Shown here: one piece after another, positions 9,656 through 51,602 of the stretch
Position numbering within the stretch: position 1 is the stretch's first letter
Layout of the letters: the number at the start of each line of letters is the position of its first letter
Assembly (NCBI RefSeq): GCF_900659865.1
Contig: NZ_LR213766.1
Coordinates: 1 to 64,000 of the forward strand
Direction of reading: 5' to 3'
From: Hyella patelloides LEGE 07179
Lineage (GTDB): Bacteria > Cyanobacteriota > Cyanobacteriia > Cyanobacteriales > Xenococcaceae
DNA length: 64,000 bases
Made by a program: the position numbers and the translations under genes
The notes under the pieces: model-generated
Database searches by the model: none
Told to the model about the DNA's origin: nothing
What the model saw: only the letters and a program-made list of their open reading frames with translations

Positions 9656-9807
9656 AGGTAATAGATGAGAATTAGCCACCAATAACTAATTGCCAGCAAC
9701 CAGCAACAACGAGCCACTAACTACCAGCACACGAACCCAGTAAATCAAAACCCATCTCAGTTCATCAAAACGCTCGACAAACAGCTACTAACAAACAATC
9801 AAATATT

Positions 9808-11988: not shown

Positions 11989-12212
11989 TTATAGAGAGTT
12001 TTCTGTAAGTAACATAAAATTTGCCTTAGTAAACCAAAATAAAATATTTATAATTAAATGTAAGCTAACTTTTCATGAATTGAAATGCATCAAAAAAATT
12101 AAGACAAAGTTAGATAAAATGAGAATTATTATTTATCAATATAATTATGACAAACCTTAAGGCGATCGCTTTTGTCTTGTTAACCGATCGCTAATAACTA
12201 ATAACTGAAAAA

Positions 12213-34475: not shown

Positions 34476-35587
34476 ACTAAAAGTTATGATAAATTCCTTC
34501 TTATAGAATTATTGTAGTGCCAAGTATAGCAAGGTTACGAATCATTGAACATTTAAGTAGCCAGTTCAAATAGGCAACAGGCAAAATATTAAACAATTTT
34601 TTCAAATCAATTTGCGATCTTTTATCTGTTATATTCTATTGCTTGAGGTTATGGGCAAATATAAGTTCGGGTAGGGCGCAGTCGCTTTTTGTTACGAATC
34701 CATAAATAACTCAATTGAGTATTCAAGCGCGATGGTAAAAAGGCGAAGTACTGTTCACTATTGCATAATCTGGCGAGAGAAATCGTATACAAGATCGATC
34801 TTACACAAAAATAAATTTCAAATCTGAATCAACCAAATTTGTCTTTATTTATACTCATTCACCATAGTGATTTTCAATCACTTGGTTGACATCGCTTTTT
34901 CCCTTCTTGTTTGCTCGACTATATTTTATCGAACTTATACAAGAAGTCTTATATTCATAGACATTTTCTTGATTCGCACAGGCAGTTTAGCCTTCAAAAG
35001 AAGGTTTAAAATTAGGAGTTCAGGTAATAAAGCTGAAATTCGCTATGAGTGTTGACTTTTAATACTAGCGGTTGACTTCCAAATGAAAATATTAGTAATA
35101 TCAACTAAGTAATATTAACTAAGTAATATCAACTAAATGTAGATGTTTTCATGGTAACTTATTAAAGTTTTGATGAAGTTTAAGTATAATCAGTTACAAT
35201 ATAATATTGTAATATATCATGAATATACAAGCTATAAGAATCAACAACTTATATTAGAAATAACTAAGTAATAGTCAATAATCGAAAAGTGATAAATAAG
35301 TTAATAGCTAATACTTTACTCACTTGAGAAGTTCGACAAAAATCAAAATATCAAAAAATACTTAGTTATTATCACTAATTCTTTTTTATAAAACCTAACT
35401 CTTTAAAATCTCTCTAATAGAAAACTAAGTAATACAAAAGCAATAGACTTTTTTTGTCTGTTGATTGTGTCTAGTGTTTTGTTAAACTCGCTCTCTCTGA
35501 TGTCGCGATTAAAAATCACGCCTAGTCACTAGCCAACATGGATCATAGTAAGGGTTCAACAGGATTTAAAAATGATTGGATAAGAAA
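34476..35587. other. 1.1-kb AT-rich intergenic region upstream of the aminosugar locus
   Basis: Noncoding by all signs. The right part (35089-35434) carries multiple AACTAAGTAATA motifs. A 62-codon frame at 34867-35055 has no domain match and no ribosome site. The clpB promoter should lie at the left end, and the promoter of the ten-gene locus at the right end. A TTGACT box occurs twice, near 35052 and 35072. Confidence 0.45.
35089..35434. repeat. Iteron-like AACTAAGTAATA motifs upstream of the aminosugar locus
   Basis: Two full copies with 14-bp spacing (35103-35115 and 35117-35129) are flanked by partial copies on both sides (about 35089 and 35131). Further copies are at 35262-35273 and 35423-35434, and an inverted core (TACTTAGTT) at 35359-35367. 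The 14-bp tandem period is not a helical turn multiple. It could be a regulator-binding array or simply a low-complexity repeat. Confidence 0.6.
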
Positions 35588-36814
35588 ATGAATTTAAACC
35601 CCAAAATAGATCGCATTCCCTTTAATCTTCCCTTTACTACTGGGAAAGAAATGGAATATATTAAGCAAGCGATCGCCACAGAAAAACTGTCAGGTAACGG
35701 TAAATTTACTAAGAAGTGTCAAGCCTGGTTAGAATCTCGGATTGGTTGTCAAAAAGCATTATTAACTCATTCTTGTACGGCTGCTTTGGAAATGACAGCC
35801 CTACTTGCTGATATTCAGCCAGGAGATGAGGTGATTATGCCCTCTTATACTTTTGTGTCTACCGCCAATGCTTTTGTGTTGCGTGGTGGCGTTCCTGTTT
35901 TTGTCGATATTCGCCCCGATACCCTAAATCTGGATGAAACAAAAATAGAACAAGCAATTACAGAGAGAACTAGGGCGATTGTTCCCGTTCACTATGCAGG
36001 TGTCAGTTGTGAGATGGACACCATAATGGAAATAGCTCGCAAGCATAACTTATTAGTAATTGAAGATGCTGCTCAAGGCATGGTTTCTCGGTATAAAGGC
36101 AAACCACTAGGTAGTATTGGACACCTCGCAGCAGTCAGTTTTCACGACACTAAGAACATCATCTCAGGAGAAGGTGGCGCACTTTTAATTAACGATCCTG
36201 AGCTAATAGAGCGAGCCGAGATTATTTGGGAAAAGGGAACTAACCGCAGTCAGTTTTTCCGTGGAGAAGTGGATAAATATAGTTGGGTTGATGTGGGTTC
36301 GTCTTACTTACCCAGTGAGATTAATGCTGCTTTTTTGTGGGCGCAGTTAGAACTTGCCGAAGGAATTACCCGTAAAAGGTTAAGTACTTGGCGTTATTAC
36401 CATCAGGTATTTAAAAAATTAGAATACGAAGAAATCTTGCATTGCCCGATTATTCCTGACGATTGTCAACATAACGGTCATATGTATTATCTGTTACTGG
36501 AAGATTTAGCAACTCGCACTGCTTTGATCGAACAACTCAAACGAGAAGGAATTAGTGCCGTCTTTCATTATGTGCCTCTCCATGACTCTGTAGCAGGTCA
36601 AAAATTTGGACGAGTCGTTGGTGAGATGAAAGTTACCAATGATATTGCAGATCGCTTACTAAGATTACCGATGTTTGCCGACATCAGAGAAAGTCAAATG
36701 TATGGTGTTAGCAACATTATTGAAGAGTTTTTTGCAGCCTACTCTCATACTTCTAGCGATCGCAATATTTTTAACAGCAACAATCTAAATAATCTAAATG
36801 TAGATGTTGCATAA
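35588..36814 (+). CDS. wecE: WecE-type dTDP-4-amino-4,6-dideoxyhexose transaminase
   Basis: PLP-dependent DegT/DnrJ/EryC1/StrS aminotransferase of about 408 residues. It is close to E. coli WecE (RffA), which converts dTDP-4-keto-6-deoxyglucose to dTDP-4-amino-4,6-dideoxygalactose: matching blocks are DIQPGDEVIMPSYTFVSTAN, AIVPVHYAGVSCEMDTIM, EDAAQGM, and KGTNRSQFFRGEVDKYSW. The PLP lysine is in HDTKNIISGEGGA. I chose the ATG at 35588; a TTG four codons upstream is possible. The donor genes rmlA and rmlB are not in the window. It leads a same-strand set of ten genes, so it should supply an aminosugar to them. Confidence 0.9.
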   Translation: MNLNPKIDRIPFNLPFTTGKEMEYIKQAIATEKLSGNGKFTKKCQAWLESRIGCQKALLTHSCTAALEMTALLADIQPGDEVIMPSYTFVSTANAFVLRGGVPVFVDIRPDTLNLDETKIEQAITERTRAIVPVHYAGVSCEMDTIMEIARKHNLLVIEDAAQGMVSRYKGKPLGSIGHLAAVSFHDTKNIISGEGGALLINDPELIERAEIIWEKGTNRSQFFRGEVDKYSWVDVGSSYLPSEINAAFLWAQLELAEGITRKRLSTWRYYHQVFKKLEYEEILHCPIIPDDCQHNGHMYYLLLEDLATRTALIEQLKREGISAVFHYVPLHDSVAGQKFGRVVGEMKVTNDIADRLLRLPMFADIRESQMYGVSNIIEEFFAAYSHTSSDRNIFNSNNLNNLNVDVA

Positions 36815-36877
36815 GCATGATTGAGATGAATCAACGTAATAAAAGAGTAGGCATTTTAGTAAGTAACATTTTGAGCA

Positions 36878-37840
36878 ATGGATTTGTCAATCGTCACGAC
36901 GCTTTACTATTCAAAGCCTTATTTGACGGAATTTTATAGTCGTATTAGTGCTGAAGCCGAGAAAATAACCAGTAACTACGAAATTATTTTTGTCAATGAT
37001 GGCTCACCAGATGATTCTTTGGATTTGGTGTTATCTTTTCATCGTCAAGCTCCCAAAGTCAAGGTAATCGACTTATCACGTAACTTTGGTCATCATAAAG
37101 CAATGATGACTGGTTTAGCCCATGCTAAAGGAAAGTTAGTACTACTTATAGACTGTGATTTAGAAGAAGAACCAGAATTATTAGGCAAATTTCATCAAAT
37201 TTTCCAAGAATCTACCGCAGATGTCGTTTACGGAGTTCAGATTGCTCGTAAAGGTGAGTTATTTGAACGTCTTAGTGGCGCAATCTTCTGGAAATTGTTT
37301 AATGCTTTATCTAGTCACTATGTTCCTGGTAATCAATTAGTCACTAGATTAATGAGTCAAAGGTATGTTCGCAGTTTGGTGGCTCATAAAGATCGAGAAG
37401 TGTTTATTCCTGGTTTGTGGACAATTACGGGCTTTGAACAGATTCCAGTTAAGGTGAAAAAACATAGTAAGGGTAGTTCAACCTATACTTTAAAGAAAAA
37501 AATTGCTCAATTTGTTGATGCAATTACTACTTTTAGTGCGACTCCTCTGGTTTTTAATTTTTACTTGGGGGGAATAATTGTCCTTTTTGCTACTATTGCG
37601 GGTTTAACATTAATTGTCCGTAAACTTATTTGGAATAAGGCTCTTGTGGGCTGGTCATCTTTGATTGTTTCTATTTGGTTTTTAGGCGGATTGACTATTT
37701 TTTGTTTGGGATTAATCGGGATTTACTTGTCTAAAGTTTTTGCTGAAACTAAACAACGTCCTTTTACTGTTGTTCGGGAAATACACGAATACCAAGAGAC
37801 AAATATTGAGCAAGATTACTGTATTAATACAAACAACTAA
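36878..37840 (+). CDS. Polyprenyl-phosphate glycosyltransferase, GT2 ArnC/GtrB/DPM1 type
   Basis: A 320-residue membrane GT2 enzyme that loads a sugar from a nucleotide donor onto undecaprenyl phosphate. The GT-A domain has FVNDGSPDDS, the acceptor-side block RNFGHHKAMMTGLAHAKG, and the metal motif DCDLEEEPE. Two C-terminal membrane helices (about 225-250 and 262-285) match ArnC, GtrB and YkcC. The WecE gene lies 63 bp upstream on the same strand, so the natural donor is a dTDP-aminosugar or its acylated form (inference). ArnC in enterobacteria does the same step for 4-formamido-arabinose. Confidence 0.88.
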   Translation: MDLSIVTTLYYSKPYLTEFYSRISAEAEKITSNYEIIFVNDGSPDDSLDLVLSFHRQAPKVKVIDLSRNFGHHKAMMTGLAHAKGKLVLLIDCDLEEEPELLGKFHQIFQESTADVVYGVQIARKGELFERLSGAIFWKLFNALSSHYVPGNQLVTRLMSQRYVRSLVAHKDREVFIPGLWTITGFEQIPVKVKKHSKGSSTYTLKKKIAQFVDAITTFSATPLVFNFYLGGIIVLFATIAGLTLIVRKLIWNKALVGWSSLIVSIWFLGGLTIFCLGLIGIYLSKVFAETKQRPFTVVREIHEYQETNIEQDYCINTNN

Positions 37841-38573
37841 AAATCAATAAGTAAAACACAAAAACAGTAATATCTTTTGAAGTTTACTATACAAGATTTA
37901 TCTTATTTTATATTACGTTAAGAAGCAATTACAAAATTATCAGGCTTCTTGCATAAATGATTAAGCTCAACATTATCCGCAGATGGATATAGATAACCTA
38001 AGATAAGTTTTAATTGTAAATTGACTTTTGTAAGATTTTTATTGTTTTGATAATTTTAAACACAGTAAACTGAATTATTAGTTTTTGTTGGATGATTTAT
38101 CTTGTTTTTTGAAGTTTGTAATAAATCATATTTTCTTTTTTAATTAATATTTTTTAAGCATAGTACTGCTTAAGCTTACTTAATTAATTTCTTCAAGTAT
38201 TTCCAAAGAGAAAAACTTTATAGCAATCAATAATCTTATAGTCCATCAAAATTTGCTCTTTATGATTATCAAAATAAACTCAATATTTTTATTATTAGTA
38301 AGACAAACTGCTCAAAAGCAAATTAGGTGAGATAAAAGTAATTTAAATAATCGCGATCGCCTTAAAAATAAATAATAGTAAAGCCAATTTACTAATCGTA
38401 ATTAAAACAATAAAATCATGACTTTAGCAACCAAAGCTGAAGCTAAAACTTTAGATAATTTAACCTTAAAATGTATTTAAATATTATATAAAAAAATGAT
38501 AATTTAACGCCAGATGTCGAGATTTAATAACTGATTTATTGAGTTTAAAAAGTTGTTAATTAATTATTGAAAA
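37841..38573. other. AT-rich intergenic region inside the aminosugar locus
   Basis: About 730 bp with many stops on both strands. A 20-codon frame at 38418-38480 begins MTLATKAEAKTLDNL after a HIP1-containing stretch; it might be the stub of a lost gene. Composition is very AT-rich. A promoter for the downstream eight genes is likely here, so the locus may be two transcription units. Confidence 0.4.
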
Positions 38574-39677
38574 ATGAAAAAAATCAGTTCGATAAGTCAA
38601 ATAATCTACTTATTAATTTTATTTGTTGCTACCTTAATTATTCTGATTCGGTTTTATCCCAGTCAGACATCTAACAGTAATGTTATGTTATCTACTACTA
38701 ATTTTCCCCAACAAGAATGGCAATATTTGATACCAGCAGAAGCTGGCATTGATTCTATTCGTTGGAAATGGTGGAATAAAACTCAAAAACCCCAAGGCTC
38801 TAGTAAATTTGGCGAACAACATAATGAGAATCAATGGGGAGTAGTTTTAGCGAAAAATGGCTACATAATTCAAACTTGGGGCAATCCAGACTACTTATAT
38901 CAAAGTGCTTCTGTGGGCAAAGCATTTACTAAAATTGCTCTTCAGTTAGCTGTAGATGAAGGTTTGATCGGTAGTGAAAACGATCTGGTAAGGGATTATT
39001 GGACGGGAGAGACGCAACTTACCGCTAGCCATCAGTATCTCAACCAAGGTCATCATCGCTCCCTTACTTTTAAGCATCTTTGGGAACATCGAGGAGGTTT
39101 TCCGATCAGCAATGGTTATTACTGGCTCAACAAGCAAGACATCCCCCAATGGGCAAACTATACAGGCGATCCAATTCAAGATAACTACGCTCATATCGAA
39201 CCTGGAACAGAATACTCCTACGCTAGTGGCGGTTATTGGCGTTTAACCCAAGCTTTGACTGCTATTTGGGGTCGAAGTCTCAAAGATGTCTTGGATGAAA
39301 AACTGTTTAGCAAAATGGACATTTCTGGGGACAGATGGGATTGGCTATCAGGAAAAGAAGTTCACGACAACGTTAATTTTTATCCCGAAATGCCCAATTA
39401 CGGTGCTTTTATCGATCCTCCCTACGAAATTGCTGCTAATCCCTGTGTCGGTGGAGGCGGTTGGGTGGTCATGAGTCCCAAAGATTTAGCCCGTGTCGGA
39501 CTGTTAATTAGTACTGGGGGTATGTGGCGCGGAGAAAGATTGATTAGCGATACAGAACTTTTAGCAGGACATAGAGGAGGTAATAACAGCAATTTATTGG
39601 TCAAAAATGATTTTGTTTGGGCGCAAGTTACTACTCAAGGTATCGAGATACCTAACTTTTTGTGGGGAAACAAATAA
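38574..39677 (+). CDS. Serine hydrolase with class C beta-lactamase fold
   Basis: A 367-residue protein with an N-terminal signal anchor (about 6-26). The active-site Ser-x-x-Lys is SVGK in YLYQSASVGKAFTKIALQ, followed by LRD-type and HRGGFPISNG blocks; the Tyr motif is YSYASGGY, and a glycine-rich region GGGGWVVMSPKDLARVG precedes the C-terminus. Such proteins are D-amino acid amidases, esterases or peptidases, not true beta-lactamases in most genomes. The stop is directly followed by the ATP-grasp start with no gap, so translation is coupled and a shared pathway is likely. It probably acts outside the plasma membrane. Confidence 0.82.
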   Translation: MKKISSISQIIYLLILFVATLIILIRFYPSQTSNSNVMLSTTNFPQQEWQYLIPAEAGIDSIRWKWWNKTQKPQGSSKFGEQHNENQWGVVLAKNGYIIQTWGNPDYLYQSASVGKAFTKIALQLAVDEGLIGSENDLVRDYWTGETQLTASHQYLNQGHHRSLTFKHLWEHRGGFPISNGYYWLNKQDIPQWANYTGDPIQDNYAHIEPGTEYSYASGGYWRLTQALTAIWGRSLKDVLDEKLFSKMDISGDRWDWLSGKEVHDNVNFYPEMPNYGAFIDPPYEIAANPCVGGGGWVVMSPKDLARVGLLISTGGMWRGERLISDTELLAGHRGGNNSNLLVKNDFVWAQVTTQGIEIPNFLWGNK

Positions 39678-41024
39678 ATGCAACAACATCACCAACAAAA
39701 GCTACTGATATTGGGTGCAAGACAGATGCAATTGCCAGCTTTTCAAGCTGCTAGAGAATTAGGTTTGTTTGTAATTGCTATTGACCCTTCACCTCATGCT
39801 GTGGGTTTAACTTTAGCAGATTGTTCTTATAACTACGATCTAGCAGATGAAGCAGCCATTTTGACTGTGGCAAAGCAGCATTCTATCGATGGCATCTTAA
39901 CTTTAGCTGCGGACTATCCAGTACCAATGGTAGCGAAAGTATCTCAGCAACTTAACATCCCAGGATTAAGTAAAACGGCTGCGATGGTTTCTACGAATAA
40001 AGCCCAAATGCGAAAGGTTTTACAAACAAAAGGAATCACAATTCCCCAATGGCGAGAAACCAGAACACTTAACCAAGCTCTAGAAGCAGTAAGAAATTTC
40101 CAAGGTGGGGTCATTGTCAAACCCGCAGATAGTTCGGGAGGGAGGGGTGTGACTTTGATTGAGAGTGATACTACAGATGAAACTATATCTAAAGCCTTTT
40201 ACAAAGCCCTGAATTTTAGTCAACAGGGTAAAGTGATGGTCGAAGAATTTATTGCAGGAAAAGAAATTTCGGTAGAAGCCATTACTATCAAGGGTAAAAC
40301 AGAAATTGTACGTATCACCGATAAACTAACCACTGAAGCTCCTTTCTTTGTGGAAATCGGTCACAGTCAACCCAGCCAACTATCAGCAAAGGAAAAAGAA
40401 CAGGTTACACAATTAACCCTCGCAGGAATTGCAGCTTTAGAAATCGATAACACTGCTAGTCACACAGAAATTCGCTTTTCAGGCGATCTCGCAAAGCGAG
40501 CCAGCAAAGCTGACCGCTTAGCACCTCAGCGAAGCCGAGATCGCCCTTACATAATTGAAATCGGTGCGCGGTTAGGGGGTGGTTACATTACTTCCCATCT
40601 TGTACCCCTTTCCTGTGGAGTGGATTTGGTCAAAGCTACATTACAACTAGCCATCGGTGAAACTCCTAATCTGCAACCAACTAAAGATTGTGGCTCGGCA
40701 ATTCGTTTTTTGCGCCCCGATCCTGGTCAAGTAATTGATATTCAAGGAGTTGCAGCAGCCCAAAAAGTTGCAGAAATCACAGAAGTTGTTGTAGAAGTCA
40801 CCCCAGGAAAGCTCATCAAACCCTTACGAGATGCTACCGCCAGAGTGGGTTATGTAATTAGTAAAGGAAAAAATGCGATCGCAGCTATTCAAAACGCCGA
40901 AACTGCCAAAAATTTGATTCAAATCAATACTTGGAAAAATCAAGAAGTCAGGAAGATGAAGAATGTAATAAATAGGGAAAAATCAACAACAAGCAATCAA
41001 CCACTAACCACTAACCAATTATGA
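39678..41024 (+). CDS. ATP-grasp ligase with an in-frame repeat insertion
   Basis: A carboxylate-amine or carboxylate-thiol ligase that forms an acyl-phosphate with ATP. The N-terminal pre-ATP fold starts KLLILGARQMQLPAFQAARE; the ATP-grasp core has VIVKPADSSGGRGVTLIES and MVEEFIAGKEISVEAI; the metal-binding end is IIEIGARLGGGYIT. An 18-codon repeat insertion (40483-40544) sits between HTEIRF and PYIIEIGARLGG, a loop just before the catalytic strand. The last residues (TTSNQPLTTNQL) are coded by heptamer-type repeat DNA. It abuts the serine hydrolase gene and overlaps the amidohydrolase gene by 4 bp. A role in acylating the aminosugar is inferred. Confidence 0.85.
   Translation: MQQHHQQKLLILGARQMQLPAFQAARELGLFVIAIDPSPHAVGLTLADCSYNYDLADEAAILTVAKQHSIDGILTLAADYPVPMVAKVSQQLNIPGLSKTAAMVSTNKAQMRKVLQTKGITIPQWRETRTLNQALEAVRNFQGGVIVKPADSSGGRGVTLIESDTTDETISKAFYKALNFSQQGKVMVEEFIAGKEISVEAITIKGKTEIVRITDKLTTEAPFFVEIGHSQPSQLSAKEKEQVTQLTLAGIAALEIDNTASHTEIRFSGDLAKRASKADRLAPQRSRDRPYIIEIGARLGGGYITSHLVPLSCGVDLVKATLQLAIGETPNLQPTKDCGSAIRFLRPDPGQVIDIQGVAAAQKVAEITEVVVEVTPGKLIKPLRDATARVGYVISKGKNAIAAIQNAETAKNLIQINTWKNQEVRKMKNVINREKSTTSNQPLTTNQL
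40483..40544. repeat. 62-bp GCGATC...GATCGC element in frame in the ATP-grasp gene
   Basis: Exactly as long as the copy at 1183-1244, with the same bounding hexamers and nearly the same first half, read in the same frame (SGDLAKRASKAD against SGDLAKRASEAD). The net addition is 54 bp, 18 codons. It lies within the catalytic domain rather than in a linker. Confidence 0.8.
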
Positions 41025-41812
41025 AATTTTTTGATTCTCTAACCCATGCTACCGCCGATGGCACTTGGCTAGGCGGAACAAGATACGATGCCAGTTTAGA
41101 CCGTTTATTAAGAGAAATGGAGCAGCAAGCCTATCGCGCTTGTTTAGTTAATATAGCTGGTTATCAAGATAACGAAACCTTGGCAGAATTTGCCAGTAAA
41201 TATCCCGATCTTTTTGTGCCAATTGCGGGCTTTGACCCTTCAGAATACAAAGATTTAGCTCAAATAGAGTCAGAAATCAAGACATTTAGCGATCGCGGTT
41301 TTGCAGGAATTAAGCTCCATCCCCGTCTGAACTCTTACGATCCGTTGGATGAAAGGTGTATTGCCACTATATCGATGGCGGGGAAGCACAACTTAGTAAT
41401 TTTCCTCGATACCCTATTTCGCCAAAAACAAGTAATTACCCGTCACCCTGCGGATGTTATAGATGCGATCTCTATTAAATGTCCTCAAACCAAAATTGTC
41501 TTATTACACGGTGGAGGCGGTCATCTTTTGGATATCTACGAAATTGTCAGAATGCGTGAAAAACTACTGCTAGATGTTTCTTTTACGATGATGCGTTATG
41601 CAGGTAGCTCTATCGATTTAGATATCAGCTTTTTGTGTCGCACCCTCGATTTACGTTTAACAGTAGGTTCTGATTTTCCCGAATACACGCCATTGCAAGC
41701 AAAACAGCAATTACTCAAGCTAACCCCCGACTTACCTTCAAAAAAACTAGAAAATATTTGTTTTCGCAATTTAGAAAAACTATTTCAAGATTGGCAAGGG
41801 TTTAGACAGTAA
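41021..41812 (+). CDS. Amidohydrolase-family (TIM-barrel) hydrolase
   Basis: A 263-residue metal-dependent hydrolase of the amidohydrolase_2/TatD type. Visible pieces are GFAGIKLHPRLNSYDP (metal/lysine strand), KIVLLHGGGGHLLDIYE (histidine strand) and LTVGSDFPEY (terminal aspartate strand). The usual N-terminal HxH is replaced by FFDSLTHATADGT, so metal binding may differ. It overlaps the ATP-grasp gene by 4 bp (ATGA), a strong sign of coupled translation. It could deacylate or open a lactone in the same pathway; this is inference. Confidence 0.78.
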   Translation: MKFFDSLTHATADGTWLGGTRYDASLDRLLREMEQQAYRACLVNIAGYQDNETLAEFASKYPDLFVPIAGFDPSEYKDLAQIESEIKTFSDRGFAGIKLHPRLNSYDPLDERCIATISMAGKHNLVIFLDTLFRQKQVITRHPADVIDAISIKCPQTKIVLLHGGGGHLLDIYEIVRMREKLLLDVSFTMMRYAGSSIDLDISFLCRTLDLRLTVGSDFPEYTPLQAKQQLLKLTPDLPSKKLENICFRNLEKLFQDWQGFRQ

Positions 41813-41863
41813 ACAGTTATCAGTTATCAGAAGCTAGTAACTTTTTTTGGAAAATACTTAATT

Positions 41864-42646
41864 ATGAAAAAAATTGATTGGCAAAAACATTTTGATGAAT
41901 TAGATCGCGACGGTTTTACCATTGTTCCCGATATCGTCGAACGTACGACAGAAATAGCAGAACTTAAATCCCAAGTTTTAGATGCAATTAAAGTTGATGC
42001 AGAAGAATACATGGGTTTACCAGGGAAAGAAGAGTTTATTGTTTTGGACTTGGTAACTAGAGGCTCGGCTTTTTTGCGCCTGTTAGAAAATGAAAAGATG
42101 CATCACTTTTTCTCTCACTTTTTAGGAGATAGCTGTATTCTTTATTCCTTTACTTCTACGGTGTTAATACCCAATCAGCATCACTACACCTCTAATATTC
42201 ATACTGATATGCCTCGGTTAATCCCTGGATACCATCTAGGATTGTTAATGACTTTGGCTCTGGATGACTTTACCGAAGAAAACGGCGCAACTTACTATTT
42301 ACCAGGTTCACATCGCTCTATAGAACGACCTACCGATGAAGAATTTTATGGCAATTCAGTTCGCGTAAAGCGCAAAGCAGGAGATGCAGCTTTCTTTCAT
42401 CCTAGAGTATGGCACGCAGGAGGTACTAATAAAACTGAGGATATTCGTTCGGGTTGCACTGTGTATGCTTGTCGCTCTTGGATGCGTCAAAGATTCGACT
42501 TTCCTCGCATGGTAAATGAAGATATTTTGTCTCAACTAGGAGAAAGAGGTAAAGCTTTCCTTGGCTATAACGTCCGCGTCCCTACGAATTTAAAAGAATT
42601 CTACTTACCTCCTGAAAAGAGATTGTATAAAGCAGGACAGGGATGA
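41864..42646 (+). CDS. Phytanoyl-CoA dioxygenase-family Fe(II)/2OG oxygenase
   Basis: A 260-residue non-haem oxygenase. The metal triad can be seen as H-x-D in NIHTDMPRLIPG (about residues 106-108) and the distal histidine in FFHPRVWHAGGTNKTED; the 2OG arginine would be in the following IRSGCTVYACRS. The fold pattern GATYYLPGSHRS is typical of the PhyH family. Such enzymes hydroxylate lipids, amino acids or natural products. It lies 51 bp after the amidohydrolase gene. With the next gene it gives two oxygenases in a row. Confidence 0.85.
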   Translation: MKKIDWQKHFDELDRDGFTIVPDIVERTTEIAELKSQVLDAIKVDAEEYMGLPGKEEFIVLDLVTRGSAFLRLLENEKMHHFFSHFLGDSCILYSFTSTVLIPNQHHYTSNIHTDMPRLIPGYHLGLLMTLALDDFTEENGATYYLPGSHRSIERPTDEEFYGNSVRVKRKAGDAAFFHPRVWHAGGTNKTEDIRSGCTVYACRSWMRQRFDFPRMVNEDILSQLGERGKAFLGYNVRVPTNLKEFYLPPEKRLYKAGQG

Positions 42647-42796
42647 AGGATGAGGAAGGAGGATTTTTGTAAGTAATGAGTAAATACAAAGTAGCGAATA
42701 GCAAGTAACAAGTAGCAAGTAATAACTTAAAGCTTAGAGCTTATAGCTTACAGCTAAAAAACAACGAGCCATCAGCAACCAACAATTAACAAAAAA

Positions 42797-43582
42797 ATGA
42801 TATTCGCTAGAGATATTTATACCCTTGATAACCATGAGATGGTGTTAAACGATCCAGATAAAATAGACAAAATCAGAGCAGATATTAAAGCAGGGGATAC
42901 TTATATTTTTAAACAGGTCATTCCCCAAGAAACTCTGAGCAAAATTAGAAACTATTTAACGCAAATAGGTAGTAATTCTCTACCAAACTATCGAGCAATA
43001 GAGCGCAATTGCCCTAATTTTCATCGCCTTAACCGTTGGGATTCCCGCGCCTATGTTAAGGGATGTTTTCATCAGTTTGTATTCTTTCCTTGGAATGAAG
43101 ATGTATTTGATTTGTTTAATCTCTGTCGTCCCGTTTATCAAATGAAAAATTTACTTAGTGGTTTATCTGCTAATAAATTTTTGGGTAAAACTCCAGAAGA
43201 TGATTGTACTGCAAGACTAGCTTTTCAATTTTATCCTGCGGGGTTAGGAGGACTGAATAAACACACCGATCCTGTGGATAGCCATCAGCTTACTGTTCCC
43301 ACAATGATGCTGTCGCAAAAAGGAGTGGATTTTCACCAAGGAGGAGCTTATGTAGAACCAGAAAATGGCGATCGCATTTTTCTAGACGATTTCTGTGGTT
43401 GGGGTGATGTGGTTTATTTTAATGCTCAAATTCTTCATGGTGTAGAAAGAATCGATCCTGATGTTCAACCTGATTGGCTATCTTTTCAAGGTCGCTGGAT
43501 GCTACTGTTTGCAGTTAACAAGCTCAGTAGTAATAAGACTATTTCTGATTCGGTGGATTTAGAAATCAAGGAAAAATCTTAA
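42797..43582 (+). CDS. Putative 2OG-Fe(II) oxygenase
   Basis: A 261-residue protein with a cupin-type oxygenase pattern: H-x-D in NKHTDPVDSHQL, and the distal histidine and arginine in ILHGVERIDP and QGRWMLLFAVN. LAFQFYPAGLGG and GDVVYFNAQ complete the double-stranded beta-helix. It is only distantly like the phytanoyl-CoA dioxygenase upstream, so not a duplicate. The 150-bp gap before it contains heptamer-type repeats. A second hydroxylation of the same acyl group or sugar is plausible. Confidence 0.72.
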   Translation: MIFARDIYTLDNHEMVLNDPDKIDKIRADIKAGDTYIFKQVIPQETLSKIRNYLTQIGSNSLPNYRAIERNCPNFHRLNRWDSRAYVKGCFHQFVFFPWNEDVFDLFNLCRPVYQMKNLLSGLSANKFLGKTPEDDCTARLAFQFYPAGLGGLNKHTDPVDSHQLTVPTMMLSQKGVDFHQGGAYVEPENGDRIFLDDFCGWGDVVYFNAQILHGVERIDPDVQPDWLSFQGRWMLLFAVNKLSSNKTISDSVDLEIKEKS

Positions 43583-43584
43583 TT

Positions 43585-44505
43585 ATGAAAGGAGTAAACA
43601 ACAATTGGGAAAAGCTAGGACGAATTTTAGCCCCAAACTCCAAAATTGAGTGGATGAGTACCTTTACAGGGGCTTCTTATGCTGTTGCTACAGAGCAAGA
43701 ATATCTATTTGATGTTTATGTTACTGGTAGAGATAGTTCTAATCGCTCTTTAATTGGTAGAGTGCAATTGGATTTGCAAGATGATCCGAAAGTAATTAAT
43801 ATCGATCCTCAACCTGTTCTATCTTGTGGTACTTTGGGAGCTTTTGATGAAAATGGTGTTTCCTATCCTTGTTTAGTCAAACATCAAGATAAACTTCGTC
43901 TTTATTACACGGGATGGATGCCTACAGTCTTAACTCCATTTCAAAATCATTTGGGAATGGCAGTACAGCAAGGTGATATTTTTCAACGATTTTCTCGCGC
44001 CCCAATTTTGCAGCGTACTAATGAAGATTTCCTCTCTATTGGTTCAGTTTGTGTTCAGTTTGATGAGGGTATTTGGAAGCTTTGGTATACCAGTTTTATT
44101 AATTGGGGAAATGAGCCAGATGCAGCAAAACATCGTTACATTATCAAGTATGCTACTTCAGAAGATGGTATTAATTGGATAAGAGATAATCAAGTATGTA
44201 TTGATATCCAAAATAAAGAGGAACATTCTATCTGTCGTCCTACTATTTTTAAGTATCAAAATCTTTATCATATGTGGTATTGCTACCGAGGTGATTATTA
44301 TAAGTTAGGCTATGCTTTTTCCGAAGATGGCATTAATTGGACTCGTAGCGATCGCGATATAAGAATTACTTTATCTGATACAGGATGGGATTCTCAATCT
44401 CAATGTTACCCTAATGTTTTTCGTTGTGGAGAATATCTCTATTTACTTTATTGTGGTAATGAATATGGTCGCGAGGGACTGGGGCTTGCCAGATTAAAAA
44501 TATAA
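43585..44505 (+). CDS. Five-bladed beta-propeller glycosidase-like protein
   Basis: A 306-residue protein with the repeating pattern of GH32/GH43/GH130-like propellers: LRLYYTGWMP, WKLWYTSFINWG, YHMWYCYRGDYYKLGYAFSEDG and YLYLLYCGNEYGREGLG. Each blade has the aromatic-W/L-YT strand. There is no signal peptide, so it may be cytoplasmic. It starts 2 bp after the oxygenase gene stop, which suggests co-translation. In polysaccharide loci such proteins can be phosphorylases or inactive sugar binders; a hydrolase role is not proven because the catalytic acids cannot be assigned with confidence. Confidence 0.75.
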   Translation: MKGVNNNWEKLGRILAPNSKIEWMSTFTGASYAVATEQEYLFDVYVTGRDSSNRSLIGRVQLDLQDDPKVINIDPQPVLSCGTLGAFDENGVSYPCLVKHQDKLRLYYTGWMPTVLTPFQNHLGMAVQQGDIFQRFSRAPILQRTNEDFLSIGSVCVQFDEGIWKLWYTSFINWGNEPDAAKHRYIIKYATSEDGINWIRDNQVCIDIQNKEEHSICRPTIFKYQNLYHMWYCYRGDYYKLGYAFSEDGINWTRSDRDIRITLSDTGWDSQSQCYPNVFRCGEYLYLLYCGNEYGREGLGLARLKI

Positions 44506-44544
44506 TTTTTTGAACTAATTTAATAACAAATTTCATAACAAACT

Positions 44545-44907
44545 ATGTATCACATTTATATTTTTCTAACCGTTATTCTCGTCGTTTATAGCCAACTTGT
44601 TATGAAATGGCAGGTGGGAATGGCTGGAGAATTACCAGTAGGAATTATTGATAAAATTACTTTTTTAATTCAGATTTTATTCCGACCTTGGGTAATCAGT
44701 GGTTTAACTGCTACTTTTTTATCTGGATTAACTTGGATGGCAGCAATGACTAAGTTTCCGATCAATTATGCTTATCCCTTTACTAGCCTTTCATTTATTT
44801 TAATTTTGATTGGTAGTTCCTTATTTTTTCACGAAGTTATTACTATTCCCAAAGCAATTGGAACTGGTTTTATTGTTGCAGGGGTAATTATTGCTAGTCA
44901 GGGATGA
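44545..44907 (+). CDS. Small four-helix EamA/SMR-type protein, ArnE/ArnF-like
   Basis: A 120-residue protein with four hydrophobic segments, the size of one subunit of the ArnE/ArnF flippase that moves undecaprenyl-phosphate-aminoarabinose across the membrane. The block MAAMTKFPINYAYPFTSLSF with a central membrane proline-tyrosine, and the final helix AIGTGFIVAGVIIASQG, fit this group and SMR exporters. Only one gene is present, so it would need to be a homodimer or find a partner elsewhere. Its place between the GT2 enzyme and the GT39-like enzyme favours a lipid-linked sugar flippase. Confidence 0.8.
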   Translation: MYHIYIFLTVILVVYSQLVMKWQVGMAGELPVGIIDKITFLIQILFRPWVISGLTATFLSGLTWMAAMTKFPINYAYPFTSLSFILILIGSSLFFHEVITIPKAIGTGFIVAGVIIASQG

Positions 44908-44989
44908 TGAGTAATGAGTAATGAGTAATGAGTGATGAGTAACTCGTCATTGAGTAATGAGTAATGGGTAGTAGGTAATAGGTAGTAGT
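44905..44989. repeat. GTAATGA-type heptamer array
   Basis: Degenerate tandem heptamers (GTAATGA, GTGATGA, GTAGTAG) directly after the flippase-like gene stop. An array of the same style as at 9538-9655 but with another unit. Confidence 0.8.
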
Positions 44990-45104
44990 TACCTAAATAT
45001 CTAATATTTTAAGATAACTGTTACTTATTATCTAGTTATTTTTTTAATACTTGAGATGAAACGACGAATTTTATTTTCAGTTTAATTATGTTGGTTTATT
45101 TAAA

Positions 45105-46952
45105 ATGTATAAGTCTGCTCAAAGTCTGGAAAAAATAACATACATAGTGTTATTAATCACCGTAATTTTAGTTGCTAGTGTTAAAATTTGGGTATTAGAT
45201 AAAGGATTTAATATTACCGATGAAGCTTATGCTGTTTTGGGCTATGAACCATTACAAGAAAGGTTAGAAGTTGTTAGTGCTTTTCATAGAATTGTTTATA
45301 AATTATTTGGTTGGTTAGAGCCTAGTTTAATGGCTTATAGAGCGATCGCTTTAGTTTCAACTACTTTGGCTGCTTCTTTTTTTGCTATTAGCTTTTACTA
45401 CTGGCTAAACAAAATCTATCAACCGAAAAATCAACCTTTTAAACTTAGCTTCATTATTCTATTTTTGATTTTAGGTGGTTTTGTTTTAGATTATGACCGT
45501 CATAATATTCTCAATTATGATGTCATTAATAATGCTTTAAACATAACCCAAGCAAGTTTAGTATTGATATTAATTGCTCAAGAAGATAGTAAAATTCTTA
45601 AGTCTTGGAAATTTAAACTAGGTTGGCTAGCTGTTGGGTTTTTAGCAACATTTCAATTTTTAAATAAAGCTCCATCCGCAGTCATGTTTACAGTTTTCTT
45701 AGGAGTTTTACTAATATTGGACACAAAAAATGTCAATTGGCAATATTATCTGCGAATTGTAATTTATTTTGTATCTGGCGGACTTTTAGGCTTGCTAACA
45801 TACTTTGTTTTATTTCAAAATTTTTGGCAGTATCAAGAACTACTATCAAGACAGTTATCCTTAATGGTCGGGGATGCATCTGATACTAGCTACAGCGTCG
45901 AAAATATTTATAGCAAAGATCGGGATTCTTCTAAAATAATCAGATGGGAAATAATCATCACGATTATCGGAGTTTATTTAACTACTTTTGGCTTAACCAA
46001 GGTTTATTTTTCTTCTAGCTATTTGAAGCATTATCGAAAGACTCGTTTGCTTAGTATCTTACTTTGGCTATTTGCTACATTTGTCATTTTGGCTTTGATT
46101 CAACCCTTACAATGGCATCTAATTAAAGCAATAAATATTACAGTATACTATCCACTAATTTTTATTTTTTTATTGGTTATACTTGCTGCTTCCAATAATT
46201 ACTTTTTAAAGTTCAAAAATTATATTTCTTTCAGAAAAATAATCGGAGTTAGTTCTTTTTTATTATTGCTTCCTTTTGGTGCAGCTTTCGGTACTAACAC
46301 ATCCATTAGAGCATTAGCAGCGAGAAATATTATTCCTTGGTTAGCAGTAATTTTGATTTTGCTAACTTTACTTTATCAAAACCACAAAACTAAAAACTTT
46401 ATCTATCTTTTTACTTTAACTATAATAGTATGGCTGGGCATTAAAATTAGTTATAGTCAAATTTACCACCCTTATAAGCTATTAGAAAATCGTCTGCAAC
46501 AGACTGAGTTACTAGAATTTGTTCAACCCCATGCAAGAGGATTAAAAGTCGATCCTTTAACAGCAAATTTTATCGAACAGCTTCATAATATTGTCCATCA
46601 ATCTGGCTTTCAAGTAGGTGACCCGATTATTGCGTTACATGATATGCCTGGATTGGTGTACCTTTTGGGGGGATTTTCTCCTGGTGCGCCTTGGTATTTT
46701 AGCGTTTTTCCAGAGTCACCAGTGCGAACTTGTAATAATATTCTGCATTCTAGTTTTAATCCTAAAAAAGCTGTTTTTTTAATTAATAATGATATTGACC
46801 CTTTAGTATTAGGTTGTTTGAAAAAGGTAGGAATTAATTTTCCTCAAGATTATCATAAAGTAGGAGAAGTAGAGAATCCTTTTTATGCAATACGTCCTTT
46901 GAGTAAAAAAACTGTTACTGTGTGGTCTTCTAAAGAAAACAGTATTGATTAA
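45105..46952 (+). CDS. GT39/ArnT-like multi-spanning membrane glycosyltransferase
   Basis: A 615-residue integral membrane protein with about 11-12 helices and a C-terminal globular part. The first extracytoplasmic loop carries an acidic pair in GFNITDEAYAVLGYEP, as in ArnT and protein O-mannosyltransferases, where it is catalytic. ArnT takes 4-aminoarabinose from undecaprenyl phosphate and moves it to lipid A; here the acceptor is unknown. The C-terminus (AVFLINNDIDPLVLG, VGINFPQDYHKVGEV) is likely periplasmic. It is the last gene of the locus and lies 197 bp after the flippase-like gene. Confidence 0.75.
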   Translation: MYKSAQSLEKITYIVLLITVILVASVKIWVLDKGFNITDEAYAVLGYEPLQERLEVVSAFHRIVYKLFGWLEPSLMAYRAIALVSTTLAASFFAISFYYWLNKIYQPKNQPFKLSFIILFLILGGFVLDYDRHNILNYDVINNALNITQASLVLILIAQEDSKILKSWKFKLGWLAVGFLATFQFLNKAPSAVMFTVFLGVLLILDTKNVNWQYYLRIVIYFVSGGLLGLLTYFVLFQNFWQYQELLSRQLSLMVGDASDTSYSVENIYSKDRDSSKIIRWEIIITIIGVYLTTFGLTKVYFSSSYLKHYRKTRLLSILLWLFATFVILALIQPLQWHLIKAINITVYYPLIFIFLLVILAASNNYFLKFKNYISFRKIIGVSSFLLLLPFGAAFGTNTSIRALAARNIIPWLAVILILLTLLYQNHKTKNFIYLFTLTIIVWLGIKISYSQIYHPYKLLENRLQQTELLEFVQPHARGLKVDPLTANFIEQLHNIVHQSGFQVGDPIIALHDMPGLVYLLGGFSPGAPWYFSVFPESPVRTCNNILHSSFNPKKAVFLINNDIDPLVLGCLKKVGINFPQDYHKVGEVENPFYAIRPLSKKTVTVWSSKENSID

Positions 46953-47287: not shown

Positions 47288-49018
47288 TTAATTTTGACCA
47301 TTTGGTGTATTTGTTTGACCATTTGGTGTATTTATTTGATCGTCTATGACGCCAGATATAGCTCGCTGTAGTTCGTTGAAAGATTGATTATATTGAATAA
47401 TTGCTGCCAGAAAATTTCCTCTAGAGGTGGTTAAACTAGATTGAGCTTGAATAACATCCGTTTGTGTTCCGACACCTGCTTGGAAACGCAATCTAGCCAG
47501 ACGTAAACTTTCCTCTGCTAACTCTACTGCTTTTTCTGTAGTATTAATATTGTCTTCATTGGCTTGAAGATTAAAAAAAGCTTGTTCAACTTCTAAGCGA
47601 ACTTGATTTCGTTGATTGGCAAAGCCATTATCTGTCAGAGAAACATCAACATCTGATTGTCTAGCTCTAGCTTTAGCTGCACCACCATCAAAAAGTGTCC
47701 ATTGTAATTGTGCGCCTACTGTATAACCAGACTGGATATCTATATCATCATCTGATACTTCTAAAAAATCTAATGTCCCAAAAATACCCAGTTGAGGGCG
47801 AATATCAGCTAAGGCAATTTTTCTTTGTTCTTGGTTAATTTCTCTTTGAAGTAAAAATTGCTCTAGTTCTACACGATTGTCATAAGCATTAACAATACTA
47901 TCTTCAAGAGCTAATTCCCAAATTCCGACTTTGGCAATGTCATCCGCAGTTTGTACATCTACTTGTTCTCCTAAATTAAGAGTTTCCCTCAACACTCTAC
48001 GAGCGACATCTTGAGCTGCTCTAGCACTGGTTAATCTTTGTTGTGCATCAGCTAATTCTACTTCTGCGCTTAACACATCGAACCTTGTCCCCAAACCTGC
48101 TTCTTCTAGTAGTTGAGCATCGTTAAGGGTTTGACTAGCATCTTCTACGGCTCCTTGTTCAATCTCTACTTGAGAGTCGGCATTTTGCAAACTGTAATAG
48201 TCTCTTTTTGCTTCAAAAGTAGTTTGCTCGGTAGCTGTTTCTACACCTAGCTCGCTAAATTCGAATTGCCTTTTTGCACGACGAATATCTGCTCCTCGCC
48301 TTCCTCCTGTATAAATATTGTAGTTAAGAGTCAAATCACCGTCAAAAGTAGTTGTATCCTCTCCTAATTGAGAATCTAGAGTTTGAGTTTCACCAGCTTG
48401 CTCAGCCGATCTATTATTACTGGCATTGTCACTGTTACTAAAATTACTTTGCACAGCTAAACTAGGATAAAGAGCTGCTCTGGCTTCTTGTAGTTCTCTG
48501 CGGGAACGGTCTAAGTTTAATTGGGCTTCTCGTAAATCCGTGTTGTTGGTTAAAGCCAATTCCACAGCTTCTTCTAGAGTTATGGGCTGATTAATATCAA
48601 TGTTGACTTCTTCAGGAGTTGTCGGAATTTCTAATTGATCGGGGTCGGGATTTAGCAGATCTAGTTCGGATGCTTCTGGCGTGGTAGTTTCTGATTCTGT
48701 TGTTTCAGGGGTATTCTGAGAGATTAAGATTTTTGATGAACTGGGGGACTGTTTGAGCAAGTTGACTGGTAATTCATTAGTACTTGCTATCTCGTACGCG
48801 CTAGCTTCGCTGTACCCATTGCGCTTCACTTGTTTGGCAAAATTGTCCGAGTTCAAACTCGCTCTTAATAAAGTGTTGGGCTGAAAAACCAGTTCATTAG
48901 TACCAGTTTGTTGCGGTGGTTGCTCCGATGGATTACTGGCAATAGCAGATGTCAGAGAACCAGATAAAATTACCGTAGTAATGCTAGCTATTTGAAAAAT
49001 AGAATTAATCTTACTCAC
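47288..49018 (-). CDS. TolC-family outer-membrane efflux protein
   Basis: A 576-residue outer-membrane channel. A signal peptide (about residues 1-28, ending TSAIASN) leads to a low-complexity N-terminal region of about 110 residues, then two repeats of the TolC helical hairpin: ITLEEAVELALTNNTDLREA, then LQNADSQVEIEQGAVEDASQ, and in the second half RLARLRFQAGVGTQTDVIQA. Trimeric channels of this sort serve type I secretion and drug export. The N-terminal region contains a GC-rich repeat-like segment (48791-48828), and the C-terminus a 21-bp tandem duplication (NTPNGQT/NTPNGQN). It is the last gene of the acetylation cluster; it could export RTX proteins (inference). Confidence 0.9.
   Translation of the reverse strand: MSKINSIFQIASITTVILSGSLTSAIASNPSEQPPQQTGTNELVFQPNTLLRASLNSDNFAKQVKRNGYSEASAYEIASTNELPVNLLKQSPSSSKILISQNTPETTESETTTPEASELDLLNPDPDQLEIPTTPEEVNIDINQPITLEEAVELALTNNTDLREAQLNLDRSRRELQEARAALYPSLAVQSNFSNSDNASNNRSAEQAGETQTLDSQLGEDTTTFDGDLTLNYNIYTGGRRGADIRRAKRQFEFSELGVETATEQTTFEAKRDYYSLQNADSQVEIEQGAVEDASQTLNDAQLLEEAGLGTRFDVLSAEVELADAQQRLTSARAAQDVARRVLRETLNLGEQVDVQTADDIAKVGIWELALEDSIVNAYDNRVELEQFLLQREINQEQRKIALADIRPQLGIFGTLDFLEVSDDDIDIQSGYTVGAQLQWTLFDGGAAKARARQSDVDVSLTDNGFANQRNQVRLEVEQAFFNLQANEDNINTTEKAVELAEESLRLARLRFQAGVGTQTDVIQAQSSLTTSRGNFLAAIIQYNQSFNELQRAISGVIDDQINTPNGQTNTPNGQN
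47293..47334. repeat. 21-bp tandem duplication at the 3' end of the TolC gene
   Basis: Two back-to-back 21-bp units (47293-47313, 47314-47334) differing by one base give a repeated TNTPNGQ heptapeptide at the C-terminus, in frame. A slippage product in a non-essential tail. Confidence 0.85.
48791..48828. repeat. GC-rich repeat-like segment inside the TolC gene
   Basis: A 38-bp GC-rich stretch (GTAC arms around GCGCTAGCTTCGCT, then CCCATTGCGCTTC) within an AT-rich, low-conservation region. GCGAAGCTAG is shared with the element near 9826. It encodes KRNGYSEASAYE. Probably another in-frame repeat insertion, but the borders are unclear. Confidence 0.45.
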
Positions 49019-49060
49019 TCCTCACTCCTCAACTGTATAGGAAATCACAATAACTGTGCG

Positions 49061-49849
49061 TTATTGATTTGTCTCATAATCAATATATCCTTTGATATTC
49101 GATTTTGCGTGTATTTTCGTAAGTATTTTGTTTAACTCTTGATTAAGTAGCTCGTAACCCTGACGGTTAATGTGTAATAGATCTCTGTAGTATTTTGTCT
49201 TACCTGGATCTTCGCTATTTAACAAGGCATAAGCATCAAAAAGTATTACCTGGTTTTGAAAAGAGTTGAGATATTGGTTTACTTCACTGATGCTTTGTTC
49301 CATTTCACTAAGGCTAGCCCAGAATGGTCGATATTTTAGGGGAATATTTCCCGAACCCAAAGGAAAGACTGTAGTTAAGATCACAGTAGCGTTAATTCTT
49401 TGAGAGAGTTCAATAATCTGAGCTATATTCTGTTGGCAATTATTAACGATATCAGATCTAGTTTTAGAATTTGAGGGTAACATTCTCAGATCGTTAATTC
49501 CTAATTGAATAACAATTATTTGCGGTTTTAAAGGTGCAATATGCTCCTCGAAACGTAAAAGAGTTTGAGCAGAAGTTTGTCCACTGATACCTCGATTGAT
49601 AAATTGAAAATTTTCATTTTGCGGAAATCTCCAACCATTGGCTCTAGAATCACCAAAAAATACCACTTTAGGAACTTGATTATTAGGAAGCTCTTGATTT
49701 TTGTATTTATTAATTCCTAAAGGATTGAGACTGGTTTGATAAAGGTTAATAAAGGTATTTTTAAGCTCTTGATATAGTATTAAATTCGCGCTTAAAGAAG
49801 CCAGCAATAAGAGCAATAAAGTAACACAAAATATCTGGAGTTTATTCAT
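49061..49849 (-). CDS. SGNH/GDSL-type esterase
   Basis: A 262-residue lipase/acylhydrolase-like protein with an N-terminal membrane anchor (about 5-27). All four SGNH blocks are present: FFGDSRANG (Ser), GISGQTSAQT (Gly), IVIQLGINDLR (Asn), and DLLHINRQGYELL (Asp/His). It lies in an O-acetylation cluster and overlaps the upstream AlgJ-like gene by 8 bp, so the two are co-translated. A role as an acetyl-transfer or esterase partner on the exopolysaccharide is likely. Confidence 0.87.
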   Translation of the reverse strand: MNKLQIFCVTLLLLLLASLSANLILYQELKNTFINLYQTSLNPLGINKYKNQELPNNQVPKVVFFGDSRANGWRFPQNENFQFINRGISGQTSAQTLLRFEEHIAPLKPQIIVIQLGINDLRMLPSNSKTRSDIVNNCQQNIAQIIELSQRINATVILTTVFPLGSGNIPLKYRPFWASLSEMEQSISEVNQYLNSFQNQVILFDAYALLNSEDPGKTKYYRDLLHINRQGYELLNQELNKILTKIHAKSNIKGYIDYETNQ

Positions 49850-51065
49850 TTCGATCTTGATTTATTTCAGCGTAAAATTTACGTACTAAATCTACTTCTT
49901 CTGGATTATTTTTTAGCCATTTTTGGCGATCGCTTTTAATATTTGCTAAATGTTGTTCGATATTTTCCTGGTTTATTATAGTACCAAAATCTTGTGGTAT
50001 TTCATCTGTTTGTTTATCTAACATACGCTGCAAAATCAAGTTGCCAATCTCTGGAGTATAGTGAGAACTATCAACATAGTTGTCCATATATTTAGCAATA
50101 GGTTCTGTGGTAATGCTGTTGTACCCAGAGAAATCCCAAACAGGTATTATTTTGACTAATTCTCTTTTCCATTGTTCAAAAACATCCCATCTTTTTGTCG
50201 TGTAAATAGATTCCCACTGGGTAGCATGGGCTGGAGAAAGAAATACTTTTAGCTCAATATTATTTTCACGGCATAATTGAACTATCTGCTTAAAATCATT
50301 CCAATAAGATTCAGAAAATTGATAGTTCGAGTGAAGACTGAAATAAAGTTTAATTGATTGGTTAAACCGCCAAATAGTCTGTCCATTATTAAAATTGCGG
50401 TTAGGCATAAAGCCATCATCGCCATAGTCATCATCAACAGTATCAGGAGAATTTTGGCTTGCCTTGATAGTTTCTAAGCTATTATTGACAACATCAAGAG
50501 AAAACAAGTTTTTTACTGCATCATCAAAGATAAGATGGTTTTTTTCTAGCCTAGAACTATTAAAAGTAGGCTGATTCTCTAAGTCTTGATTAAACATAAA
50601 AAAATCAACCCCTAAAATAATTTCTTTGAGTTCTGGTTGATTGTGAATAGCGTGTTCGATATATCTTCTTGCTTCATAAAAATTAGGACCATTAATAGCT
50701 AAGTTATAAAAATTTTGCTCTTTTCCTAAAGCAGAAGATTCAGGATCTATTCCTTGCTTAGTACGGGATGAACCCATAATAATATTTTCAGGTTGTAGAC
50801 GGATAATATCAACAGCTTTAAACAAGCGATCGTTGTTATCTTTGTTGATTTTTTCGTGATTAATTTTCCAGTAATTGGGTGACTTGAAAATATCTTGAGG
50901 ATCGATTAACCAATTAAATAATCCCACTGAAAAAACAGGGATTGTCATGATACCTATTAAATAATAGTTATAAATAGCAAATTTATTTTTCTTGCGAGGG
51001 ATTGCTTTCTTTTTTTTTCTTTTAAAGAAAAAAGATTTTGCTGAATGATAGTTACTCATTATCAA
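49842..51065 (-). CDS. AlgJ/AlgX-like SGNH acetyltransferase-type protein
   Basis: A 407-residue protein with a basic, lysine-rich N-terminus, one membrane helix (about 30-52), and a periplasmic SGNH-type domain. Motifs are IIMGSSRTKQGID (nucleophile region), GPNFYEARRYIEHAI, and the C-terminal catalytic block NYVDSSHYTPEIGN. AlgJ and AlgX work with the MBOAT protein AlgI to acetylate exopolysaccharide. The AlgI-like gene is upstream on the same strand (51603-53084), separated by a degraded copy of this gene. The strong likeness to that fragment shows a past duplication. Confidence 0.82.
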   Translation of the reverse strand: MIMSNYHSAKSFFFKRKKKKAIPRKKNKFAIYNYYLIGIMTIPVFSVGLFNWLIDPQDIFKSPNYWKINHEKINKDNNDRLFKAVDIIRLQPENIIMGSSRTKQGIDPESSALGKEQNFYNLAINGPNFYEARRYIEHAIHNQPELKEIILGVDFFMFNQDLENQPTFNSSRLEKNHLIFDDAVKNLFSLDVVNNSLETIKASQNSPDTVDDDYGDDGFMPNRNFNNGQTIWRFNQSIKLYFSLHSNYQFSESYWNDFKQIVQLCRENNIELKVFLSPAHATQWESIYTTKRWDVFEQWKRELVKIIPVWDFSGYNSITTEPIAKYMDNYVDSSHYTPEIGNLILQRMLDKQTDEIPQDFGTIINQENIEQHLANIKSDRQKWLKNNPEEVDLVRKFYAEINQDRNE

Positions 51066-51123
51066 ATTGCTATTAATGTATTTTTTAGTAGAGAAAGCTC
51101 ACTGTAAAATAGTGTCCATTAAT

Positions 51124-51594: not shown

Positions 51595-51602
51595 ACTAAG
51601 TT

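Follow-up and report, generated by a model that had tools for sequence, protein, structure and literature searches.

A candidate three-component glycosylation cassette for a decorated 4-aminosugar in the cyanobacterium Hyella patelloides

A row of ten genes in the genome of Hyella patelloides LEGE 07179 (assembly GCF_900659865.1) raises the question whether this cyanobacterium makes, modifies and exports an amino sugar through one dedicated pathway. The genes occupy positions 35576-46952 of the window, the stretch of 64,000 nucleotides analysed here (contig NZ_LR213766.1, positions 1-64,000 of the forward strand). All ten open reading frames (ORFs) are intact and keep their active-site motifs; the ten run on the same (+) strand, as an earlier sequence-only reading had described. 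On balance, we favour the view that these genes encode an extracytoplasmic glycosylation system of the three-component kind, which would handle a decorated 4-amino-4,6-dideoxyhexose and contain an exchangeable module for N-acylation and hydroxylation.

The first gene (35576-36814) starts at either a TTG at 35576 or an ATG at 35588 and encodes a WecE/RffA-type 4-transaminase of deoxythymidine diphosphate (dTDP)-4-keto-6-deoxyhexose. It scores 629.1 bits against TIGR02379 (curated cut-off 434.85), and the lysine K193 that binds pyridoxal phosphate is conserved among its relatives. Against the profile of ArnB, the UDP-Ara4N transaminase, it reaches 198 bits, where the cut-off is 631. Judged by family, the product is probably dTDP-4-amino-4,6-dideoxygalactose (dTDP-Fuc4N), possibly dTDP-4-amino-4,6-dideoxyglucose (dTDP-Qui4N), and the sugar thus probably Fuc4N. 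RmlB and RmlA adjoin each other on another contig of the genome. A second full-scoring WecE, 68% identical to the first, lies at 2632-3837 of contig C71 (locus L076), where it adjoins an O-unit flippase-like protein without decoration genes.

The second gene (36878-37840) encodes a GtrB/ArnC/PgfS-like GT2 glycosyltransferase (PF00535). Its best NCBIfam matches, PgfS with 162 bits and ArnC with 122 bits, are both far under the cut-off (529 for ArnC). The motif D92xD94 is conserved, and two C-terminal transmembrane (TM) helices at residues 219 and 255 give the protein the layout of a polyprenyl-phosphate sugar synthase, the type that serves as loader in three-component systems. A flippase gene of the three-component type is also present (44545-44907). 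It encodes an EamA/ArnF-like half transporter related to EmrE, which scores 54.9 bits against ArnF (PRK02971; cut-off 99). Flippases 51-53% identical to it adjoin WecE in the cyanobacterial loci L081, L083 and L086; L083 additionally holds PhyH, RmlA and RmlB. The roles of transaminase, lipid loader and flippase proposed from the sequence alone are supported.

The last gene (45105-46952) encodes a protein of 615 residues with about 12 TM helices and a TDE motif after the first of them (ITDE at 37-40). It has no match in Pfam or NCBIfam, including the PMT_2 and ArnT profiles, and no sequence match in 292 cyanobacterial genomes, the PDB or plasmids. A structure model from the single sequence reached a predicted local distance difference test (pLDDT) of 43.5, and pairwise hhalign comparisons with further GT-C proteins, from the genome and from the loci, gave nothing. 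The label of an ArnT-like GT39 enzyme given in the sequence-only reading thus finds no backing in PMT_2, ArnT, the PDB or the model. There are, however, two rhizobial candidates for homologues. In Rhizobium sp. N731, a protein of 613 residues has WecE, GT2, flippase and WbqC as neighbours; its counterpart in Neorhizobium galegae adjoins RmlA, WecE, GT2 and WbqC. With these, hhalign aligns the Hyella protein along its length (96.2%, 513 columns, 24% identity), a result to be read with the thin profiles and hydrophobic sequences in mind. All three share the TDE motif after the first TM helix and a soluble C-terminal block with PGxLYLLG...G.PW. The case for the Hyella protein as a remote homologue of these two WecE-cassette proteins is good but not conclusive, and a GT-C transferase, acting in the periplasm, would be its natural reading.

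Between the loader and the flippase lie the putative decoration enzymes, whose conserved residues we read from alignments of relatives from 19 related loci. The ATP-grasp protein (39678-41024; PF18603, PF13535) carries an LAL_C2 domain, the C-terminal domain of L-amino-acid ligases; BL00235 (3vot), itself an L-amino acid ligase, is its nearest relative in the PDB. Its ATP- and metal-binding residues K108, K148, E189, E294 and R298 are conserved, and by these family features it is a putative carboxylate-amine ligase, proposed to be N-acylating. Overlapping its end, the next gene (41021-41812; PF04909) encodes an Amidohydro_2 TIM-barrel enzyme, here called AmHyd, in which H9, H100, H163 and D218 are invariant and a leucine (Leu7) replaces the first histidine of the usual HxH motif. 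A PhyH-type Fe(II)/2-oxoglutarate (2OG) oxygenase follows (41864-42646; PF05721, 1.2e-21), with H113xD115...H184...R195 conserved in its relatives. The protein of the next gene (42797-43582), OG2, belongs to no Pfam family. Its metal triad and 2OG-binding arginine (H156xD158...H214...R233) are invariant, and a model built from 16 sequences (pLDDT 85.9) matches the double-stranded beta-helix fold of Fe(II)/2OG dioxygenases such as SptF, AndA and OkaE (probability 1.00, query TM-score about 0.41-0.51). By motif and modelled fold, OG2 is therefore a second Fe(II)/2OG oxygenase, in line with the two 2OG oxygenases proposed earlier. Next to it lies a GH130-like five-bladed propeller protein resembling glycosidases and phosphorylases (43585-44505), which matches PF04041 over part of the profile (28.6 bits, cut-off 26) and, in PDB profiles, GH130 phosphorylases and GH117/GH43-type glycosidases.

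The arrangement leaves one clear break. An AT-rich gap of 733 bp (37841-38573), free of genes and of any ORF of note, divides the ten genes into two and eight, so that they probably form two transcription units. The gap sequence is essentially single copy in the genome and, short weak matches aside, no multi-copy repeat, so that it gave no sign of an insertion element. A scan for promoters and terminators remained at background level, GC content across the region gave no clear step that would mark an island, and PADLOC found no defence match. In a ClpB synteny comparison with eight genomes of the same family, the cassette is absent and the neighbours differ in each, so that the ends of an island could not be fixed.

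Do these genes belong together? We used OG2, the best bait for the cassette, to search 84,980 species genomes. This returned 19 close loci, L017-L035, which are 41-62% identical in their best segments and come from about ten phyla: Melainabacteria/Caenarcanales, Verrucomicrobia, Bacteroidota, Chloroflexota, Omnitrophota, Nitrospirota, Acidobacteria, Myxococcota, Actinomycetota and Pseudomonadota, the latter including the isolate Halomonas denitrificans DSM 18045, which has the genes for WecE, ATP-grasp, AmHyd, OG2 and propeller, plus a Prochlorococcus. Within about 10 kb of OG2, we found the amidohydrolase in 16 of the 19, ATP-grasp in 15, the propeller in 14, a DegT transaminase of whatever kind in 13 (in 12 it is a WecE with 50% identity or more), GT2 in 12, a S-adenosylmethionine (SAM)-dependent methyltransferase in seven and PhyH in four. 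Several of these loci end at contig ends, and the Prochlorococcus locus L032 has OG2 alone. As a control, three remote OG2 homologues (29-30% identity, L036-L038) lack the core genes. AmHyd, used as an independent bait in the 292 cyanobacterial genomes, hit just three of them, its own genome and two of Melainabacteria type in which the cassette is likewise present, and is single-copy in 11 of 11 tested genomes reached via the loci. OG2 was absent from the other 39 of the 40 nearest relatives searched. Co-occurrence was the test that the sequence-only reading had set for itself, and the outcome was in its favour: the middle genes do keep company with the transaminase and a glycosyltransferase. 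The notion of a set peculiar to this cyanobacterium had to be given up.

Since WecE is present in just 21 of the 292 cyanobacterial genomes, the joint occurrence is far above chance, and a chance neighbourhood is out of the question. The core set looks genuine and mobile, a cassette for sugar decoration that so far has no name. We found no description of it in the open-access literature; subscription journals were not covered, so an earlier description is possible. A phage serotype-conversion origin was dropped, as phage and viral collections contain no OG2 relative. The class C serine hydrolase, which opens the eight-gene block and is membrane-anchored or secreted (38574-39677; PF00144, 4e-15; SVGK at 113; N-terminal TM helix), has no relative in any related locus. 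Counted earlier as part of the pathway, it is probably a local accessory specific to the Hyella locus.

Sister cassettes indicate which parts are constant. On plasmids of rhizobia, Azospirillum and Bernardetia, propeller relatives adjoin DegT/WecE, WbqC, an EamA half-flippase, a PglD-like acetyltransferase and a SAM methyltransferase, in many cases with GT2 as well. The cyanobacterial WecE loci L081, L083 and L086 follow this pattern. In this type B cassette, WbqC and the acetyltransferase stand in place of the ATP-grasp and amidohydrolase genes, and the propeller is a constant partner in both types. The sister cassettes keep WecE, GT2, flippase and propeller, joined by RmlA and RmlB in L083 and by RmlA in L096. 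WecE, loader, flippase and propeller are thus a recurring scaffold, on which ATP-grasp/amidohydrolase/OG2 (type A) and WbqC/acetyltransferase (type B) are alternative decoration sets. The two trees point to different affinities: the Hyella cassette WecE groups with cyanobacterial WecE (99/91), and the propeller clusters with its Acidimicrobiales and Halomonas counterparts (98/97). The Hyella cassette therefore has the look of a mosaic, in which a scaffold of cyanobacterial type bears a decoration set acquired from elsewhere.

Within type A, partner genes vary. A protein of about 718 residues, without Pfam or convincing PDB match, lies inside the cassette in four loci of Melainabacteria-type genomes and Nitrospira (L017 13336-15492, L024 12158-14311, L025 8376-10532, L027 4212-6551). 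An HMGL-like aldolase (62-71% identical) is present in four loci; inside the cassettes of L018 (7616-9748), L019 (11975-13980) and L022 (11961-13951) it is paired with an uncharacterised protein of about 320 residues and perhaps makes the acyl precursor. Such alternative partners point to acyl groups that differ from locus to locus. Further relatives occur in pseudaminic/nonulosonic-acid clusters with NeuB/PseI and PseG homologues, namely L105 of Bacteroidota (4798-10366; ATP-grasp and amidohydrolase) and L106 of Prochlorococcus (7300-12874; amidohydrolase). There, a sugar amine is likely again the target. From the LAL-type ATP-grasp class and these relatives, we infer N-acylation of the 4-amine by the ATP-grasp enzyme; the ATP-grasp protein SfmE, needed for the full mass of the Shewanella flagellin glycan, lends this indirect support (PMC3765264).

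Taken together, we propose the following pathway. RmlA and RmlB, encoded elsewhere in the genome, would supply dTDP-4-keto-6-deoxyglucose, which WecE would aminate, a role established for its family. The ATP-grasp enzyme may activate a carboxylic acid and join it to the 4-amine, and the two oxygenases may hydroxylate the acyl group or the sugar. For AmHyd and the propeller, tailoring or proofreading of the product would be our guess. Going by family roles and gene company, GT2 would put the sugar onto polyprenyl phosphate, the ArnF-like protein would flip the lipid-linked sugar, and the 12-TM protein would pass it to a periplasmic acceptor, for example a surface polysaccharide or protein. The decoration genes would be an exchangeable module set on a cyanobacterial WecE scaffold.

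Several observations weigh against this pathway. The roles of the enzymes are read from family and gene company. The related loci come mostly from metagenome bins, their ATP-grasp proteins are 22-38% identical to that of Hyella, and L018 alone among the type A loci has a recognised flippase homologue. The GT-C-like protein lacks a profile match and its model is poor (pLDDT 43.5), the 733-bp gap divides the gene set into two units, and nonulosonic-acid clusters carry the same genes without a polyprenyl-phosphate loader being shown. More tentatively, and short of an even chance, we suggest that ATP-grasp, amidohydrolase, OG2 and propeller form an unnamed, horizontally spreading module that serves different carriers, polyprenyl-phosphate WecE systems here and nonulosonic-acid systems elsewhere, and adds an N-acyl group new on bacterial 4-aminosugars.

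Alternatively, the decorated dTDP-aminosugar could become part of a polysaccharide repeat unit of the Wzx/Wzy or ABC type, or of a protein glycan assembled in the cytoplasm, with the GT2, flippase and GT-C genes serving another sugar. Many related loci do hold several other glycosyltransferases and polysaccharide genes, the small flippase is missing from most cassette loci, and nonulosonic-acid clusters contain the decoration genes as well. We nevertheless consider this unlikely: the loader-type GT2 goes with the core in 12 of the 19 loci, and flippase and GT-C relatives go with WecE in several cyanobacteria and rhizobia. Natural-product clusters often contain ATP-grasp enzymes with LAL_C2 and PhyH enzymes, and the gap between the two gene blocks would suit a free, peptide-like natural product made by the ATP-grasp, amidohydrolase, oxygenases and hydrolase, which WecE and the glycosyltransferases glycosylate or merely adjoin. 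However, neither the ten genes nor their recurrent partners include a carrier protein, synthetase or natural-product exporter, and WecE is often the scaffold partner across phyla, which makes this improbable. Chance adjacency of two unrelated groups, WecE with GT2 on one side and an operon of eight genes on the other, for which the gap and the differing affinities of WecE and propeller might speak, is very improbable and largely refuted by recurrence in distant phyla, where WecE and GT2 stand beside the middle genes in most related loci in varying orders.

How does the proposed system relate to known ones? The combination of loader, flippase and, in Hyella, a putative GT-C protein is that of three-component systems, such as Gtr serotype conversion and the GT136 pentofuranose systems (PMC11127046). 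Unlike these, the Hyella cassette would bring along a module of its own for acylation and hydroxylation, its sugar would be a decorated 4-amino-4,6-dideoxyhexose, and its candidate transferase is assigned to no GT family. The modified viosamine island of P. syringae likewise yields a dTDP-4-amino-4,6-dideoxyhexose with a modified N-acyl group. There, the acyl group is made on an acyl carrier protein and moved by VioB, and VioT transfers the sugar; the island has neither ATP-grasp nor 2OG oxygenase (PMC3927599). In Shewanella oneidensis, the flagellin modification cluster sfmABCDE shares an ATP-grasp protein in an aminosugar glycan setting, and deletion of its gene sfmE lowers, without abolishing, flagellin glycan mass; the sugar, however, is a nonulosonic acid, and the cluster lacks WecE, loader and flippase (PMC3765264). 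The enterobacterial common antigen route also uses WecE to make dTDP-Fuc4N. In contrast, the ten Hyella genes include no WecD acetyltransferase and no WecF, and acylation is proposed to be of ATP-grasp type.

The Arn (aminoarabinose) route of Enterobacteria and Pseudomonas has several elements in common with the Hyella cassette: a DegT transaminase that yields a 4-amino sugar, a GT2 loader for polyprenyl phosphate, an EmrE-like flippase and a 12-TM protein, in Hyella the putative periplasmic transferase. The differences are numerous. Hyella has a dTDP-hexose WecE where Arn has ArnA/ArnB, lacks the ArnD deformylase, has one half-flippase compared to the ArnE and ArnF pair, and adds ATP-grasp, amidohydrolase, two 2OG oxygenases and the propeller; its transferase matches no ArnT/PMT (GT83/GT39) profile. 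The absence of ArnA, ArnB and ArnD, pointed out earlier, was confirmed by the ArnB score given above and by the lack of the ArnA and ArnD families among the ten Hyella proteins, the rest of the genome not having been searched. By these features, the cassette would act like the Arn route without being a member of it.

Phages, hosts and predators recognise unusual N-acylated aminosugars on bacterial surfaces, and to our knowledge the enzymes for most of these sugars are unknown. A conserved module found across phyla in the company of WecE and a polyprenyl-phosphate loader names candidate genes directly. It also leads one to expect lipid-linked sugar donors of a new class, and OG2, a new 2OG oxygenase family, may serve as a marker for finding such pathways. 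Most known three-component glycosylation systems come from enterobacteria, Gram-positives and mycobacteria; the cassette would add a cyanobacterial case.

Two neighbouring regions, both on the - strand, deserve mention. Adjoining the cassette, 47288-53084 encodes a TolC-like outer-membrane efflux protein (OEP), a GDSL esterase, a DUF1574 protein and an MBOAT O-acyltransferase. Together these resemble an alginate-acetylation set, and some extracellular polysaccharide could be their target. Further on, at 53823-56379, FG-GAP and RTX calcium-binding repeats are encoded by two ORFs with an overlap of 17 bases, possibly one gene for a secreted protein split by a frameshift.

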